This document shows, piece after piece, positions 15,976 through 22,208 of a DNA stretch of 24,502 nt. The notes below the pieces were generated by a model. The model saw only the letters and a program-made list of their open reading frames with translations. It was not told the DNA's origin and did not search any database. A program made the position numbers and the translations under genes. Source of the stretch: a virus; the IMG/VR virus record IMGVR_UViG_3300034111_000733, positions 1-24,502 of that record, one strand, 5' to 3'. Position 1 is the first letter of the stretch. Every line of letters starts with the position of its first letter.

Positions 15976-16108
15976 CTTTATCTCGCTTCTCTTGTGGTGG
16001 ATTCTTCTGCGGAAGGGAAGCCTTTTCTTTGCCGAAAACTCTATCCCAGCCAGTACGAAAGGCTTCCGAGTGATTATTTCTAGGCGAATCTCCTTTGCCT
16101 GCGCTCAT
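15926..16108 (-). CDS. Small phage protein, MSAGKGDSPR type (60 aa)
   Basis: The start MSAGKGDSPRNN, followed by FRTGWDRVFGK, matches a recurring tiny phage protein (M-S-x-GKGD-x-PR ... WDRIFGK) of unknown function. The C-terminal half is strongly charged with many Lys, Asp and Glu. ATG 16108 overlaps the helicase stop as ATGA, so it is translated with DnaB. A role next to the replication fork is possible from position alone. Confidence 0.75.
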   Translation of the reverse strand: MSAGKGDSPRNNHSEAFRTGWDRVFGKEKASLPQKNPPQEKRDKDDKNETHTKRLRDAAR

Positions 16109-17439
16109 CGTTGTAGTTGGTTGAACTTGGTGGTCGGGCGATTGAAAACCATCCTGATGCTCGCGCAGCCGTTGTCGCGGCCCTTCGCCTGAACGATCTC
16201 CACCTCTAAATTCTGCACGGTCTGATCGTTGAGGGTTTGCGTCCCGCCCTCGGAGTTCTCGGTGGGCAGGTGAATGAAGATTACTCTGTCCGCATCCTGC
16301 TCGATGTTGCCCGATTCCCGTAGGTCCGAGAGGCGGGGAATGCGGTTCTCTCTCTCCACTTCCCGGCTCACCTGAGCCAGCAGGATCACGGGGATGCCCA
16401 TCGAGACGGCCAAGTCCTTGAAGGCTAGGGTCGTCTGTCCGATAGCAATGTCCCGCGTCTCTCCCTTGCCGTGCGGGGGCACGTAGAGCTGGAGGTAGTC
16501 GATCACCACAGCCTTCACCTGCATAAACGCCTTGCAGGCTTCGATGCGGGCGGCGATCTGGGAGGGGTTCCGGTCCGAGTCAAAGATGTGCAGGCGCTTC
16601 GACAGGTTGGTCTCAATGTCCTTCAAGGCGTTCTCGAAGGCTTTGATCTGGTGCTGGGAGGCTTGCCGGGATTCAATGGCTCGGACGGAGACGCCCGACA
16701 TCATCCCAGCCAGCCCTTTGCAGACCTTCTTCACCGGCATCTCACGCGAAAAGAGCAGCGTGTCGCCATATCGGGACGCAAAGTGGCGGCAGATGTCGCG
16801 GGCCATCGAGGACTTTCCGACACCCGGACGGGCGGCGATGACGATCAGTTCACCACCAGTCGCGGCACCTAGCTCCTTGGTCATATCCGGCCAAGGCCAA
16901 GTCATTCCAGTCTGCTCGGCTTCCCCGGAGAGAAGCTTGGCAATATCAGCCATCACCTGACTCGCGGCGTCCTTCAGGCTTACCTGCGTAGCCGTCTGGT
17001 TCCTGATCGCGAGAACCTTGCTGATCTTGGCGACGAACTCATCCACCTGTGGCTTCCCGGCTAGGGCCATTTGCGTGGTCTCTGAGGCCACCACAGCCAA
17101 TTCCCGCGCCTGATACGCATCCCGGAGGGCATCTAGGCTATACGCGAACGCTAGCGGCGTAGGCGAGGCTCCTGAGATGTCCGAGAAGTTAACCAGTCCC
17201 CCGCATCGCTTGAGGTCAGGATCGGTCTTCTTCAATTCAGCGCAGATGATGTGCGGCTCCAGTCCAATCCCCCGGATGTGGGCCTCGTTGACCTGTTTCC
17301 AGATCACTTTGGCGAATGCGTTGTAAAACCAAGCCTCTGTGACTTTGTAGTCCAGAGCTTTGAGGAGGGCCGATGGACCCTCGTTCATCACTACCGAAAG
17401 GACGATCCTCTCAGCTTCCTCATTGTGCGGGAGTTTCAT
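16105..17439 (-). CDS. dnaB: Replicative DNA helicase, DnaB-like (444 aa)
   Basis: Residues about 1-110 match the DnaB N-terminal domain (NEEAERIVLSVVMN start, WFYNAFAKVIW helix). The RecA-like C-terminal domain shows Walker A ARPGVGKS at 203-210, catalytic Glu in SREMP at 231-235, Walker B VVIDYLQLY at 311-319, the sensor line LLAQVSRE at 353-360, LRESGNIEQDAD at 373-384 and the arginine-finger region KGRDNG at 419-424. It should form a hexamer that unwinds the fork, loaded by the initiator encoded at 20585-21160. ATG 17439 has an A-rich leader; the stop couples to the next small gene. Confidence 0.95.
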   Translation of the reverse strand: MKLPHNEEAERIVLSVVMNEGPSALLKALDYKVTEAWFYNAFAKVIWKQVNEAHIRGIGLEPHIICAELKKTDPDLKRCGGLVNFSDISGASPTPLAFAYSLDALRDAYQARELAVVASETTQMALAGKPQVDEFVAKISKVLAIRNQTATQVSLKDAASQVMADIAKLLSGEAEQTGMTWPWPDMTKELGAATGGELIVIAARPGVGKSSMARDICRHFASRYGDTLLFSREMPVKKVCKGLAGMMSGVSVRAIESRQASQHQIKAFENALKDIETNLSKRLHIFDSDRNPSQIAARIEACKAFMQVKAVVIDYLQLYVPPHGKGETRDIAIGQTTLAFKDLAVSMGIPVILLAQVSREVERENRIPRLSDLRESGNIEQDADRVIFIHLPTENSEGGTQTLNDQTVQNLEVEIVQAKGRDNGCASIRMVFNRPTTKFNQLQR

Positions 17440-17798: not shown

Positions 17799-18007
17799 GT
17801 AACTAACCTCCTATCCACGCCCCGCTTGTCGGCAATGGCGATTCGCTCGGCCTCAGTTGCCCATATGAGCTTTAGTCCGATGCGTCGTCGCTGACGTTTA
17901 ATCGCACGCCATCCGCAATGGAGGTCTGCGATGATCTCCTTGACCATCTGCATTTGCATAAGGCGGCGCTCTATCTCCTGAGCCTTGGGATGCATTGGGT
18001 AGCTCAC
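17795..18007 (-). CDS. Small basic helical protein (70 aa)
   Basis: I place the start at GTG 18007, which overlaps the preceding stop (GTGA) and has AAGGAG 5 bases upstream. The product is MSYPMHPKAQEIERRLMQMQ, then a region rich in Arg and Lys (WRAIKRQRRRIGLKL), and ends RRLVT. It looks like a small helix-turn-helix or nucleic-acid-binding protein, but I cannot name a family. Sequence upstream of this start in the same frame is Arg-rich shadow coding and is excluded. Confidence 0.7.
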   Translation of the reverse strand: MSYPMHPKAQEIERRLMQMQMVKEIIADLHCGWRAIKRQRRRIGLKLIWATEAERIAIADKRGVDRRLVT

Positions 18008-18453
18008 GGCTGCTCCTTTCGTGCGGCGTCGATGGCGGCGCGTTCCTCCGGCGTCAGGAGCGCCAGCATCTCCTCTGCGCCGTCGTTGATTTGGCTCAAA
18101 ACCGTCTCTGCATTGTCGCCATCTAGGTTGCTGCGATCTTCTGCCACCACGGCCTCGTCGATGAACTCTTTCCATCGCCTTAGAAGTTCAGTCAGCCGCT
18201 CCTTATCCGCCCGCAGCCGAGCAATTTCCCTCTCGTAAAAACCGGTCTTAACTTTGAGGTCATTGATTTCCTCGCACGCAATCCGCAGGTGATTGCGTTT
18301 TGCCTCAATCTCGTACTCCAGTTGCCTTCTGAGATCGATGCACTCTGCGATATACCAGTCGATGTCGCGCTGGTTTGGTTTTGTCGTTGGGAGTGTCATT
18401 TGATGTAATGCTTTGGCGTGTCGATTAGCCTCGGCGATCAGGTGGTCGCTCAC
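18004..18453 (-). CDS. Coiled-coil hypothetical protein (149 aa)
   Basis: GTG 18453 has AAGGAGG 9 bases upstream and overlaps the previous stop (GTGA). Residues about 35-95 form a strong coiled coil (LRRQLEYEIEAKRNHLRIACE, in part, and YEREIARLRADKERLTELL). The protein ends ERAAIDAARKEQP. The last 9 residues return in the gene at 19058-19411, and the underlying DNA is a 26-bp exact repeat. No enzyme motif. It is probably a structural or regulatory oligomer of early function. Confidence 0.7.
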   Translation of the reverse strand: MSDHLIAEANRHAKALHQMTLPTTKPNQRDIDWYIAECIDLRRQLEYEIEAKRNHLRIACEEINDLKVKTGFYEREIARLRADKERLTELLRRWKEFIDEAVVAEDRSNLDGDNAETVLSQINDGAEEMLALLTPEERAAIDAARKEQP

Positions 18454-18839: not shown

Positions 18840-19061
18840 TTACGCTTTTAGTTGTTCAATTATTCGGCGCAGCTCTTCATTGTCTTCTTCGAGAACTCTT
18901 TTTTCTTCTGTCAGTCCAGAGATGACGTCGCTCAAATCAGAGATAGTTTGATCGAGCTCAATAATGATGCTTTGCAGATTTGAAAAATGCTGAGCAGCTT
19001 CGGCTGCCGCTTGCTCTGCTAGGCTTATTTCACGATCTTGAGTTGAGTTTGTGTTTCTCAC
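18840..19061 (-). CDS. Short coiled-coil protein (73 aa)
   Basis: GTG 19061 overlaps the preceding stop (GTGA) and shares the AAGGAG ribosome-binding site that lies in the 26-bp repeat. Nearly the whole product is one coiled coil, with heptads running from LQSIIIELDQTISDLSDVIS to EEDNEELRRIIEQLKA. Isolated coiled coils of this size in phage early regions may be oligomerisers or partner-binding inhibitors, but nothing specific is visible. Confidence 0.7.
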   Translation of the reverse strand: MRNTNSTQDREISLAEQAAAEAAQHFSNLQSIIIELDQTISDLSDVISGLTEEKRVLEEDNEELRRIIEQLKA

Positions 19062-19411
19062 GGCTGCTCCTTTCGTGCGGCGTTGATTGCGGCCCGCAGC
19101 GCGGCGTTTTCGCGCTCCAGTTGTTTCACCTTCCCGACTAGTGGAGCCACACACGTGCAATGCTGCTCGTCGGATCGATGATCCAATGCGTGCAATACCG
19201 CATTCTCCCAGTCCGCTATTTTTTCACGTAGGGCCTCGTTCTCCGCGAACATCAACTCGCTCTGCCGCTGGCCCTCACACTCCCGGCCATCACAGGTTTC
19301 GCACAGCCAGCCCGTGCGAGCGTTGTCCAATTGCCGTTGGAGCTCGTCCACCTGAGCCTGCACCTTGTAGTAGGCTGAGATGGCGATCATATCGCCGTGC
19401 TCGTTAATCAA
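19058..19411 (-). CDS. Coiled-coil protein with Cys clusters (117 aa)
   Basis: I choose TTG 19411: GGAGG lies 6 bases upstream and the start overlaps the previous stop (TTGA), as at neighbouring junctions. An in-frame TTG at 19438 would add 9 residues but has a poorer ribosome-binding site. Residues about 16-35 and 60-110 are coiled coil. Between them CETCDGREC, and later HCTC, could form a zinc site. The C-terminus ENAALRAAINAARKEQP shares its end with the protein at 18004-18453. Confidence 0.65.
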   Translation of the reverse strand: MINEHGDMIAISAYYKVQAQVDELQRQLDNARTGWLCETCDGRECEGQRQSELMFAENEALREKIADWENAVLHALDHRSDEQHCTCVAPLVGKVKQLERENAALRAAINAARKEQP

Positions 19412-19599
19412 GACACACCTCCAATCTGCTTCATCCAATGGACCGCCCGCAGGGCGCTTTGGCGCATCATCTGCCGGGAGCCCTGCCGGAGGGTTTCGCG
19501 GGTTTCGGTTTGGGCCATCAGTCGGTGGGCTTCCGCCCGTCCGAGGAAGTAGGCGGTCATTGCCAAGGGGCTGTAGAGGGCTGGTCTCTTAGTCTTCAT
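19408..19599 (-). CDS. Small basic hypothetical protein (63 aa)
   Basis: ATG 19599 follows a long A/C-rich leader without Shine-Dalgarno. The product (MKTKRPALYSPLAMTAYFLG, then basic helix ETRETLRQGSRQMMRQSALR) has many Arg and Met and ends KQIGGVS. Its start region overlaps the DUF6378-like gene by 11 bases. It has no motif that I recognise. Two internal segments are helical and amphipathic. Confidence 0.6.
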   Translation of the reverse strand: MKTKRPALYSPLAMTAYFLGRAEAHRLMAQTETRETLRQGSRQMMRQSALRAVHWMKQIGGVS

Positions 19600-20015: not shown

Positions 20016-20588
20016 TTAACTGACTTTGTATTTCCCGGTGAACTCCAAGGCGAGCTTGAAGTCCTCCAGTAAAACCTTTTCTCCGACCATCCGCGAGAAC
20101 CAGCCCGATTCAAGAGGCAGGCTTTGACCTAGGGCTTTGGCGGTCGGGTGCGTAATGCCGTAGCGGTGCGTCCGGCACAATTCCAGCAGTTGCTTTGTGA
20201 GCACGATCTTGCCCTCAGCATCTGCGGCAGGAAGCGCGGGAAAATCGACCTGATGCTTGGCCCTTTTAGGCTTCGGAGGCGTTGGCATCTTCGGTGCCTG
20301 CTGCTCCTGATGCGGCTTCCCGTGGAACACGCTGTGGCAGCGATGGCACATACAGATCAGGTCGTCCAAATGCTCCAGTTCGTAGCCGCGATGCTCATAG
20401 GTGCGGTGATGCGCGGCGAGGTCCATCTGGCTGTTGCAGACTTGGCAACGATGCCCGGCGCGAGCCTTTACGTGCTTTGACACCAAAGCCCAGTACGGGG
20501 TCTTCAGGTAGTCAGCGTAAGGCATATGAGGCCCCGGACCTTTAGGGAGCGGCGGGTAATACCGCATAAATGCGCGTTGCTTGCTCAT
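20016..20588 (-). CDS. HNH-domain protein with C-terminal extension (190 aa)
   Basis: Residues about 27-90 form an HNH domain: YLKTPYWALVSKHVKARAG leads to CQVC at 48-51, AAHHRTYEHRG at 58-68 and CHRCHSVFH at 81-89, with the His-His and the second zinc knuckle in place. A Pro/Lys linker (95-112) joins a C-terminal helical part (115-190). It is coupled to the initiator gene by ATGA, an order in which such nucleases may nick near the origin or act in recombination. The C-terminal part is not recognised. Confidence 0.8.
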   Translation of the reverse strand: MSKQRAFMRYYPPLPKGPGPHMPYADYLKTPYWALVSKHVKARAGHRCQVCNSQMDLAAHHRTYEHRGYELEHLDDLICMCHRCHSVFHGKPHQEQQAPKMPTPPKPKRAKHQVDFPALPAADAEGKIVLTKQLLELCRTHRYGITHPTAKALGQSLPLESGWFSRMVGEKVLLEDFKLALEFTGKYKVS

Positions 20589-21160
20589 ACGGCAGTCGGA
20601 AACGGGAAGCGAGTGCGCCCGCCATACGGGTTGATCACGGTGGCGTATCCGTCTCCCTTTAGCTCGACCCGGTAATCGTGGTATGCGTTGGGGCTTAGAG
20701 TGGGCTTCAGCGTGCGAAGCATAGCTGCGTGCGCTGCGCCCTTATGCAGCACTCCAAGGTTCTCATCCTTGGGGAGACTATGCATATGGTGCATACCAAG
20801 GTTAGTATTCTTAGTATTATCTAAGTTATGTACCTTGGTGTGCATATGGTGCATACGTAGTTCTACGCCATTAAGGGTAAGAACGTAGGCGTTGGACCTA
20901 GCACTATTTCCCGGCTTAACCCTTATCAGCCCTTTGTCCTTTAAGGACTTAAGGGCGGCAAAGACCGCCCGCACCGAGAGATTAGCCTTCTCAGCAATCG
21001 TCGCGGATGCAGGGTTGCATAGGCCCGTCTGCGCGTTGCGGCAGCGCCAGAGGTAGGAGAGCACCCAGCCTTCTTGCGGGGTAAGCCCGAAATCGAACAG
21101 CCAAGCCGGGATAAACGGCTCACGGCCAGCACACACATCTGTTGAGTAGGTTGTTGTCAC
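20585..21160 (-). CDS. Winged-helix replication initiator-like protein (191 aa)
   Basis: Residues about 26-81 form a winged helix (LTPQEGWVLSYLWRCRN, then ATIAEKANLSVRAVFAALKSL, then KGLIRV), the HTH_36-type domain common at the N-terminus of phage initiators. A low-complexity linker with two MHHMH blocks (103-107, 123-127) follows. The linker DNA contains an origin-like repeat array, as in lambda O, where iterons lie inside the initiator gene. A helicase gene downstream fits the role. The start is uncertain: GTG 21160 has no good Shine-Dalgarno, and GTG 21136 behind an A/C-rich leader is an alternative. A terminator hairpin lies directly upstream. Confidence 0.7.
   Translation of the reverse strand: MTTTYSTDVCAGREPFIPAWLFDFGLTPQEGWVLSYLWRCRNAQTGLCNPASATIAEKANLSVRAVFAALKSLKDKGLIRVKPGNSARSNAYVLTLNGVELRMHHMHTKVHNLDNTKNTNLGMHHMHSLPKDENLGVLHKGAAHAAMLRTLKPTLSPNAYHDYRVELKGDGYATVINPYGGRTRFPFPTAV
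20781..20856. other. Origin-like repeat array inside the initiator gene
   Basis: The 16-mer tgcatatggtgcatac occurs exactly at 20781-20796 and 20841-20856, a 60-bp period. Each copy holds two TGCATA hexamers 9 bp apart. Between them an 8-bp inverted repeat (accaaggt at 20795-20802, accttggt at 20832-20839) encloses a 29-bp stretch, 20803-20831, of which 23 bases are A or T. That stretch is crossed by a tandem ttagtatt (20802-20809, 20811-20818). Iterons plus an AT-rich unwinding segment within an initiator gene is the lambda-type origin plan. Function is inferred. Confidence 0.6.
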
Positions 21161-21168
21161 AAGCAAAA

Positions 21169-21196
21169 GGCCCGCCAAGTGTGTGCTTGACGGGCC
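21169..21196 (-). terminator. Intrinsic terminator/attenuator before the initiator gene
   Basis: On the minus strand an 11-bp stem (one U-G pair) encloses the 6-base loop CACACA and is followed at once by TTTT. It lies 8 bases before GTG 21160. Transcripts arriving from the transglycosylase gene would meet it before the initiator. Confidence 0.75.
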
Positions 21197-21243
21197 ATTG
21201 CTTGAACAACCCACCCGAGGATCAGTCGGGCGAAATAGATTTC

Positions 21244-21259
21244 TCAGGCACACACCTGA
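21244..21259 (-). promoter_or_regulatory. Leader hairpin with loop complementary to the terminator loop
   Basis: The minus-strand sequence TCAGGTGTGTGCCTGA folds as a 5-bp stem with loop UGUGUG. That loop is the exact complement of the CACACA loop of the terminator at 21169-21196. The rest of the 21161-21419 leader holds no convincing gene; the long open frame there reads like non-coding sequence. Confidence 0.5.
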
Positions 21260-21419
21260 TAACGAGACCTTACCATACAGACGGTTGACATCAAGCTTTA
21301 GATGCGTGATTTTGCCTTTAAGCGTGCAAACCTCTGAAGACCAGCTAGATATGTTCGAAGAAAGTTCTAAGAGGGTGAAGGTTTTAACGGTAATAACAGC
21401 TAAAAAACCCGTCATCACC

Positions 21420-21842
21420 CTAGCGTCTCAGGTCACGCTTCCCTCGGTCAGCCAGCCATTTACGGCTGTTAGGGTGAGCCCAACCGAGACTTGGATCATT
21501 CACCATTGATTCAACCTTTAAGGCATATTTCGTGGATATGCCCTTTAAGGCATATTTGGAGTTAGGGCCGTGCCGCCAGATGTTGGCCCGGGTTTGAGGG
21601 GTGTCGGGCAGCCGGTGCCGCGCCACCCACCTGTCCGTGTAGAGCTGAAACAAACGGAAAGACCCGTCGAGCGAGGATCGGTCCTTTAAGGAGGCTTGGT
21701 GGCCCCAGTTTTGAATGTCCTTAACTACGGCAGGCTGGATTTGGGCCGGGCCTACGGCGGAGCCATTGCGGGCGTTCAGGTCGCCGCTGGATTCCATCTG
21801 AACAATTGCGAGGAATAGGATCAGGAGTTGGGATTCGGTCAT
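21420..21842 (-). CDS. SLT-type lytic transglycosylase / endolysin-like (140 aa)
   Basis: From ATG 21842, LLILFLAIVQMESSGDLNAR holds the catalytic Glu at 17 in the M-E-S-S-G line, followed by GPAQIQP at 31-37, FRLFQLYTDRW and the late motif RANIWRHGP. This is the lysozyme-like transglycosylase fold, which cuts the glycan strand of peptidoglycan. There is no signal peptide, so release would need a holin. The frame stays open to TTG 21935 and would add 31 residues made mostly of a hexapeptide repeat. Two further copies (SLKDRS; KYALKGIST with KYALKVES) interrupt the body between conserved motifs. The start is therefore uncertain. Confidence 0.7.
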   Translation of the reverse strand: MTESQLLILFLAIVQMESSGDLNARNGSAVGPAQIQPAVVKDIQNWGHQASLKDRSSLDGSFRLFQLYTDRWVARHRLPDTPQTRANIWRHGPNSKYALKGISTKYALKVESMVNDPSLGWAHPNSRKWLADRGKRDLRR

Positions 21843-21851
21843 AAATGCGGG

Positions 21852-21908
21852 GGATTCACCCTTTAAGGCGGATTTGCGCTTTAAGGGGGATTTGTCCTTT
21901 AAGGAGCT
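21852..21908 (-). repeat. Three tandem 18-bp TTAAAG units, related copies nearby
   Basis: Read on the minus strand, each unit is xCC TTA AAG nnn nAA TCC, coding S-(S/P/A)-L-K-x-(K/E). Single copies lie at 21683-21691 and as a 27-bp-spaced pair at 21515-21530 and 21542-21557 (both plus-strand cctttaaggcatattt) inside the transglycosylase gene. The Leu and Lys codons are always TTA and AAG, while neighbouring codons vary. Confidence 0.8.
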
Positions 21909-21954
21909 TTTCCCCAATAGGCGCTCGCCCGGCAAGCCTCTTCCCGGCGCACGG

Positions 21955-21976
21955 GTACGTACAGGGCACTACGTAG
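21955..21976. promoter_or_regulatory. Paired TACGTA palindromes, operator-like
   Basis: Two perfect 8-bp palindromes, gtacgtac (21955-21962) and ctacgtag (21969-21976), are separated by 6 bp. They lie upstream of the transglycosylase gene in a stretch without genes. A related TACGTA/ACGTAT inverted repeat lies upstream of the last minus-strand unit at 24480-24497. Confidence 0.45.
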
Positions 21977-22165
21977 GGGAAAGACCCTAGGCGTGCACTG
22001 GGGAATGTTGCCCAGTTCCGGAAATCGCCAGAAAGGGCCTTTGCTTGCGTTTCTAGCCACTTTGATGCGCTGGGGCTATGGTGACACTCCCCGCGTTCCT
22101 AGGGCCCCGCAAAACGCAAGGAAACGCGCAAGGGAATGCGAGGATCGCCGCAAATAGGCGCGGAA
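21977..22165. other. Gene-free stretch upstream of the transglycosylase unit
   Basis: I find no convincing gene on either strand here. It should hold the promoter of the 21842-to-11596 unit, but no clear -35/-10 pair is visible. It contains the first CCCCGCAA word (22105-22112) and several CGCAAGG words shared with the following block. Confidence 0.4.
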
Positions 22166-22191
22166 AAGCCGCCCCGGTAAAAGGGCGGCTT
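22166..22191 (-). terminator. Intrinsic terminator of the accessory minus-strand unit
   Basis: A perfect 9-bp stem (AAGCCGCCC / GGGCGGCTT) with an 8-base loop is followed on the minus strand by a run giving UUUUCC. It stands 17 bases after the stop of the last gene, 22209-22457. There is no T-run on the plus side, so it works for the minus strand only. Confidence 0.85.
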
Positions 22192-22208
22192 GAAGAACGA
22201 GGCTTGGA

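Follow-up and report, generated by a model that had tools for sequence, protein, structure and literature searches.

Six copies of the sequence xCC TTA AAG lie in one minus-strand reading frame of an uncultured phage, and what keeps them there is the question raised by this locus. They were noted in the window, by which we mean the whole stretch of 24,502 nucleotides analyzed here (IMG/VR record IMGVR_UViG_3300034111_000733), in a preliminary description that read them as a DNA-level repeat tolerated as in-frame peptide insertions in a transglycosylase gene. The underlying observations were reproduced: the six copies share one frame in the window, the first three are spaced 18 bp apart and two others form a pair 27 bp apart, an identical 15-mer occurs at 20933-20947 and 21891-21905, and a further copy lies in the non-coding leader, with CTTTAAG at 21316.

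The window was compared with two groups of relatives. The first clade, or window clade, comprises the window and 32 IMG/VR loci whose gene product is 74-98% identical. The second clade, picked up by a pattern search for the array of repeats, has a gene product 57-66% identical, and the DnaB proteins of the two clades share about 54% identity. Ten viral contigs of 34-36% GC (L142, L137, L141, L138, L139, L155, L143, L145, L134, and L136) carry a pair of CTTAAAG units 18 bp apart, one of the two being CTTAAAGAATCAATC (CTTAAAGAGTCAATC in L143), and gave no match to the lysozyme-fold gene; they probably belong to a separate group of phages that the search pattern happened to match. In the phage collection, no match was obtained by blastn with the region 20580-22200 or by tblastn with the lysozyme-fold gene product, and a search of the genome contigs collection for a host returned no match. 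One virion protein showed 36% identity to a protein of Phage C75C1.

The repeat is a 17-bp DNA element confined to one cluster

Contexts in and around the gene were gathered at the 33 window-clade loci with TTAAAG as the only criterion; the 100 unique ones gave the consensus CCTTAAAGGNNNAATCC and defined the repeat unit as a 17-bp DNA site, 5'-CCTTAAAGG-N3-AATCC-3' on the minus strand. The second conserved half, AATCC, which was absent from the preliminary description, sits 3 bp past the core and is 82-98% conserved per base in these contexts, as against at most 68% for the three spacer bases. By eye, roughly one helical turn separates the two halves and CCTTtAAGG forms an odd-length palindrome, so that the unit looks like a putative bipartite protein-binding site, and we infer that it is bound by a sequence-specific protein.

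The window contains 13 CTTTAAG where 2.3 are expected, a number reached by none of 100 shuffles. On the plus strand, those belonging to the sites of Table 1 start at 21516, 21543, 21684, 21861, 21879, and 21897, with one more in the leader (21316) and one in the initiator gene (20939), and nowhere beyond the listed sites did the family weight matrix score above 15 bits in the whole 24.5 kb. In the 19 first-clade records including the window there are 110 occurrences of CCTTTAAGG, and 109 of them lie in the cluster in a single orientation, when the initiator-gene copy is treated as a member of the cluster; the lone outlier is G017:1237. The reversed control pattern occurred three times in the same records. 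The repeat is a DNA element composed of an array and scattered copies, with one cluster per record in one orientation. In 5' order on the minus strand, the cluster region of the window runs from the array (21904-21852) through the lysozyme-fold gene, site 4, and a terminator-like hairpin to the O-like initiator gene; terminator-like hairpins in the region are present in a number at chance level.

Table 1. Features of the repeat cluster and its surroundings, in positions of the window (scores are from the weight matrix)
Feature	Positions	Strand	Remarks
Array copy 1, CCTTAAAGGACAAATCC	21888-21904	-	Score 27.6; 15-mer identical in initiator gene
Array copy 2, CCTTAAAGCGCAAATCC	21870-21886	-	Score 27.2
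Array copy 3, CCTTAAAGGGTGAATCC, just upstream of ATG	21852-21868	-	Score 27.4
Site 1, in gene, codons 51-56, CCTTAAAGGACCGATCC	21675-21691	-	Score 22.2; TTA in 24 of 24 unique sequences
Site 2, in gene, codons 98-103, CCTTAAAGGGCATATCC	21534-21550	-	Score 23.1; TTA in 27 of 30, both clades
Site 3, in gene, codons 107-112, CCTTAAAGGTTGAATCA	21507-21523	-	Score 25.7; TTA in 30 of 30, both clades
Site 4, non-coding DNA behind gene, GCTTAAAGGCAAAATCA	21307-21323	-	Score 17.3; same offset 26 times in window clade
Core-only copy in initiator gene, CCTTAAAGGACAAAGGG	20930-20946	-	Score 12.9; 13 same-offset copies in relatives
Predicted lysozyme-fold (SLT-like) gene, 140 aa	21420-21842	-	Conserved ATG at 21842, conserved length
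Non-coding DNA upstream of array	21905-22208		Short repeat families TACGTA, CCTGTAC, TAGGGTnTTTnCC
O-like replication initiator gene (HTH_36)	20585-21160	-	PHROG 391 'replication initiation O-like' 1.4e-9; HTH_36 6.8e-8
Terminator-like hairpin between site 4 and initiator gene	21169-21196	-	11 pairs, T-rich tail
DnaB-like helicase gene, same leftward set	16105-17439	-	PHROG 19 2e-65; Pfam DnaB_C 4e-48

The sites overlap a gene for a predicted lysozyme-fold protein

The product of the gene carrying sites 1-3 is predicted to have a lysozyme-like fold. A structure model built from 17 sequences reached a pLDDT of 92.8; this model used a second, more diverse alignment, a first model with a pLDDT of 49.7 having been set aside. 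Its best PDB matches were lytic transglycosylases and lysozymes, at E values of 0.01 and above with probability near 1, and three viral predicted structures matched at E values of 2e-4 to 8e-4, one of them named as an SLT-domain protein. The Pfam SLT profile scored 11.6 bits, below its cut-off of 21.3. Glu17 is invariant in the 17 sequences, and we take it to be the candidate catalytic Glu of an SLT-type lytic transglycosylase. On the predicted fold, the earlier naming of the gene as a transglycosylase appears reasonable.

Codons within the gene preserve the sites

In the window gene, the sites fall at codons 52, 99, and 108, and all three of its Leu-Lys pairs are written TTA AAG, as compared with 1 of 31 in the 26 other ORFs, where TTA makes up 22 of 525 Leu codons (4%). 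Resampling of synonymous codons in this gene produced three copies in 6 of 20,000 trials. Among the 24 unique full-length gene sequences obtained from the 33 window-clade loci, the Leu column was TTA in 24, 22, and 24 sequences at sites 1, 2, and 3, respectively, and every other Leu column varied to some degree. The counts for both clades in Table 1 (n = 30) add to these 24 the 6 unique diverged sequences out of 7. Over the 12 site codons, synonymous diversity was 0.071 (degeneracy-stratified permutation p = 0.0008). The gene overlapped by the repeat therefore keeps codons that preserve the 17-bp site. These locked codons, together with a copy that reads GFK rather than LK in an opposing ORF of some relatives, bear out the earlier view of a DNA-level repeat.

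Homologues with the same residues in unrelated codons had been named beforehand as the sign of selection on protein, and this was seen in part, mainly at site 2, the sites being otherwise locked. At site 2, Leu-Lys was encoded by CTA AAG in 2 of the 24 window-clade sequences, by TTA AAA and CTA AAA in 2 of the 6 diverged sequences, and by CTG AAG in L200; at site 3, TTA AAA occurred in 1 of the 6. Since Leu-Lys persists at site 2 even in L106, L107, L132, L144, and L200, whose codons no longer spell the site, it seems to be partly kept at the protein level too, and the protein would appear to tolerate or prefer Leu-Lys at this position.

The positions of the sites are kept in the first clade, where relatives carry them at 151, 292, and 319 bases from the ATG and then at 519, behind the gene. 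Single losses were found, among them those of site 1 (L126-L128 and L124) and of site 2 (L106 and L107). In L144 the sites lie at 321, 372, and 498 from the homologous start (3818), matching L132. In L198, site 3 reads Arg-Lys and a full site occurs further on, in a C-terminal extension. In L200, neither position 2 nor position 3 carries a site, and the 3' end of the gene contains four related units with a spacing of 17-18 bp. In the more distant L194-L196 (51-54% identical), CTTAAAG is absent from the loci and the positions of sites 2 and 3 do not read Leu-Lys; these homologues align gap-free over residues 1-115, which indicates that sites 1-3 arose by substitution. Comparison with homologues, proposed earlier as a check for insertions, thus found none at sites 1-3; the sole insertion-like case is a 24-residue stretch bearing an extra copy in L146, L040, and L086. 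Judging from these sequences, the sites appear to come and go at the DNA level and the protein to follow. In L044, a 567-aa ThyX-like ORF extends from +2410 to +4113 relative to site 2; it contains what we take to be an intein-like insertion, which starts CVSGNTKITL and ends VTHN before S.

The array lies in non-coding DNA and in three downstream contexts

The conserved start of the protein is the ATG that follows the array (21842 in the window), and the three tandem copies lie ahead of it. The array holds 2 to 5 copies, and its spacing in window-clade relatives is 17, 18, or 19 bp. By hand count, the copies next to the ATG are all in one phase at 7 of 33 loci and the frame is broken at 25 of 33; at one locus a single exact copy is left, and at 5 of the 33 the array is placed further upstream of the gene. 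Since a spacing of 17-19 bp mostly breaks the frame, the array is non-coding, and the single phase reported for the repeat, correct in the window, is no general property. An in-frame insertion cassette is ruled out by this spacing and by the gap-free homologues that lack the sites.

Three different downstream contexts were found. At most window-clade loci the array sits directly before the ATG; in this clade about 12-40 bp lie between the two, and no promoter was seen there. In the second clade, arrays have 3-5 copies, mostly 17-18 bp apart, and lie more than 1 kb upstream of the lysozyme-fold gene; in L086, L146, L153, and L162 the array is followed by a promoter-like TTGACT-16-TAAGGT, and the genes that come after include one of the DUF932 family. 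In L119, L127, and L110, opposing ORFs lie between the array and the gene, and the extra copy at the end of the opposite-strand ORF is the one that reads GFK.

The non-coding DNA upstream of the array contains repeats that differ between relatives (window 21905-22208; L101, L108, L127, L144, and L153), with families made up of TACGTA about 10 bp apart, TAGGGTnTTTnCC 29 bp apart, and CCTGTAC; an AT-rich CTATAGCTATGCAAA repeat is present upstream of the array in L153 and L162.

The cluster as a candidate replication origin

That the cluster stays while the downstream gene, the promoter, and the neighboring initiator change points to a cis-acting structural element. As in an origin built of iterons, several direct repeats are found in a single place and orientation, and the genes that follow on the same strand are replication genes, namely a DnaB-like gene, an Erf-like gene (read from the sequence), and in some records an O-like gene. 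The second clade (57-66% identical) also keeps the array, which we counted in favor of an origin. Because the cluster has the form of iterons and stands ahead of the replication genes, we favor reading it as the iterons of a phage replication origin, to which we give about an even chance. A protein would then occupy the array together with the copies within and beyond the lysozyme-fold gene, and the resulting nucleoprotein complex would open neighboring DNA and assist in loading the DnaB-like helicase of the phage. The gene, as part of the origin region, would be forced to use TTA AAG for Leu-Lys and TCC for Ser at the sites.

Base composition was compared at 14 loci of our choosing. Among 9 second-clade loci, 8 had a 100-bp segment near the array whose GC content ranked within the lowest 1% for the locus; the exception was L067, whose contig ends in the array. 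Strongly AT-rich DNA beside the array was found in none of the five window-clade loci tested. The second-clade result speaks for an origin and the window-clade result against one. GC skew is extreme near the cluster in the window but elsewhere in a 39.4-kb relative.

The O-like gene behaves as a presence/absence module beside the cluster (window 20016-21160) and was found in 11 of 26 records, the 15 without it including the 39.4-kb record and some short fragments. On this count, the O-like protein is unlikely to be the sole binder, and the putative binder would be another phage protein or a host factor. An HTH protein encoded before dnaB was considered as a shared binder and rejected, as its versions in the two clades are not alignable (hhalign probability 0.3%). 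That the cluster is the origin of a new sequence family lying in a lysozyme-fold gene, with a conserved binder other than the O-like protein and the O-like gene as an optional add-on, is a speculative and rather unlikely extension. The O-like gene carries a 16-mer, TGCATATGGTGCATAC, twice, 60 bp apart (20781-20796 and 20841-20856), which reads MHHMH and could be a second set of sites, and it is followed by an HNH-like ORF (read from the sequence) in several records. Elsewhere in the window, two unrelated small minus-strand ORFs (18004-18453 and 19058-19438) share the tail ARKEQP, GCACGAAAGGAGCAGCCGTGA, which ends CAG CCG TGA; similar tails recur in relatives. This tail contains AAAGGAG, which resembles a Shine-Dalgarno sequence, and a GTG that overlaps the stop, and it may therefore serve the start of the next gene.

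The same cluster could instead be an operator array through which a phage or host regulator controls the leftward early operon, the copies in the gene acting by looping or blocking. Every copy points the way the gene is transcribed and a promoter-like sequence follows the array in the four second-clade loci named above, as such an array would have it; however, the short stretch from array to ATG in the window clade shows no promoter, opposing ORFs separate array and gene in three loci, and conservation extends to copies as far as 350 bp into the gene and 200 bp beyond it. A fixed place relative to a promoter was not found, given the three contexts (the promoters being predicted by sequence), which disfavors a simple operator, and we regard this explanation as possible but doubtful. 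If TerS, the small terminase, or a partition protein bound the repeats, the cluster would be a packaging or partition site; this would fit the conservation of TerS, which, like the site, is well kept between the clades (72% identity). No ParA/ParB-type gene turned up in searches that were aimed at other genes. However, a pac or cos site is expected in or beside the TerS gene, as in SPP1, where excerpts of one report place pac over that gene (PMC6316719), whereas the array lies about 2.4-3.1 kb from it in the three records showing both; this explanation is improbable.

Closest to the preliminary description would be a neutral or selfish short repeat spread by slippage or copying and tolerated in the protein. 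Variable copy number in the array and copies in new places, such as the 24-residue insertion and the 3' end of the L200 gene, speak for it, but the spacer varies within units while AATCC is constant, the codons are locked over two clades, and copies occur in a single place and orientation, so that we find it quite improbable. Selection on peptide or RNA rather than DNA, for which the Leu-Lys kept at site 2 under changed codons and the position of all copies on the sense strand of the gene could be cited, is in our judgment very improbable, as the array is outside coding DNA, one copy in an opposing ORF reads GFK, and codon use at the sites is locked. A known RNA element was also discarded, as an Rfam search gave no match in the window, L144, L146, and L153.

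Comparison with known origins and implications

Among the literature matches listed, no description of the 17-bp site was found in work on iterons, terminase/pac, or DUF932, and texts holding either 9-mer of the site were unrelated by title; an origin combined with a lysozyme gene gave no literature match. The bacteriophage P4 ori/crr and iteron plasmids place one repeat family in separate blocks around a gene. The cluster resembles them in having repeat blocks on both sides of a gene and differs in that no P4 alpha-like or RepA-like binder was identified here. In lambda and Stx phages, as excerpts of one study describe, the origin consists of iterons inside the O gene with an adjoining AT-rich tract, and synonymous changes were used to test iteron function (PMC7466680). 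Likewise, several repeated sites here lie in coding DNA next to replication genes, but their sequence is unrelated by eye, they extend over about 600 bp, they occupy a lysozyme-fold gene and not the initiator gene, and the window-clade loci tested show no such AT-rich tract. Phage SPP1, in the excerpted portion of its literature, has direct repeats plus an AT-rich region at oriL and oriR, with oriL inside gene 38, the gene of its own origin-binding protein (PMC6316719). Both systems set a precedent for an origin within a gene. The cluster shares with SPP1 the direct repeats, a position inside a gene (as for one SPP1 origin), and a DnaB-family helicase, whereas the O-like gene is optional here and oriL, in the same excerpts, lies in the gene of the binder.

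Because the probable landing sites of a replication protein overlap the gene, part of its wording would serve two purposes. The locus offers a case of overlapping codes in which a DNA site holds the codons of a gene, with matching codons in two clades and with distant homologues that lack both. It also provides this uncultured phage family with a testable candidate origin and a defined 17-bp bait for the putative binding protein. If the cluster is indeed an origin, the overlap would physically tie replication control to the gene for a cell-wall enzyme.
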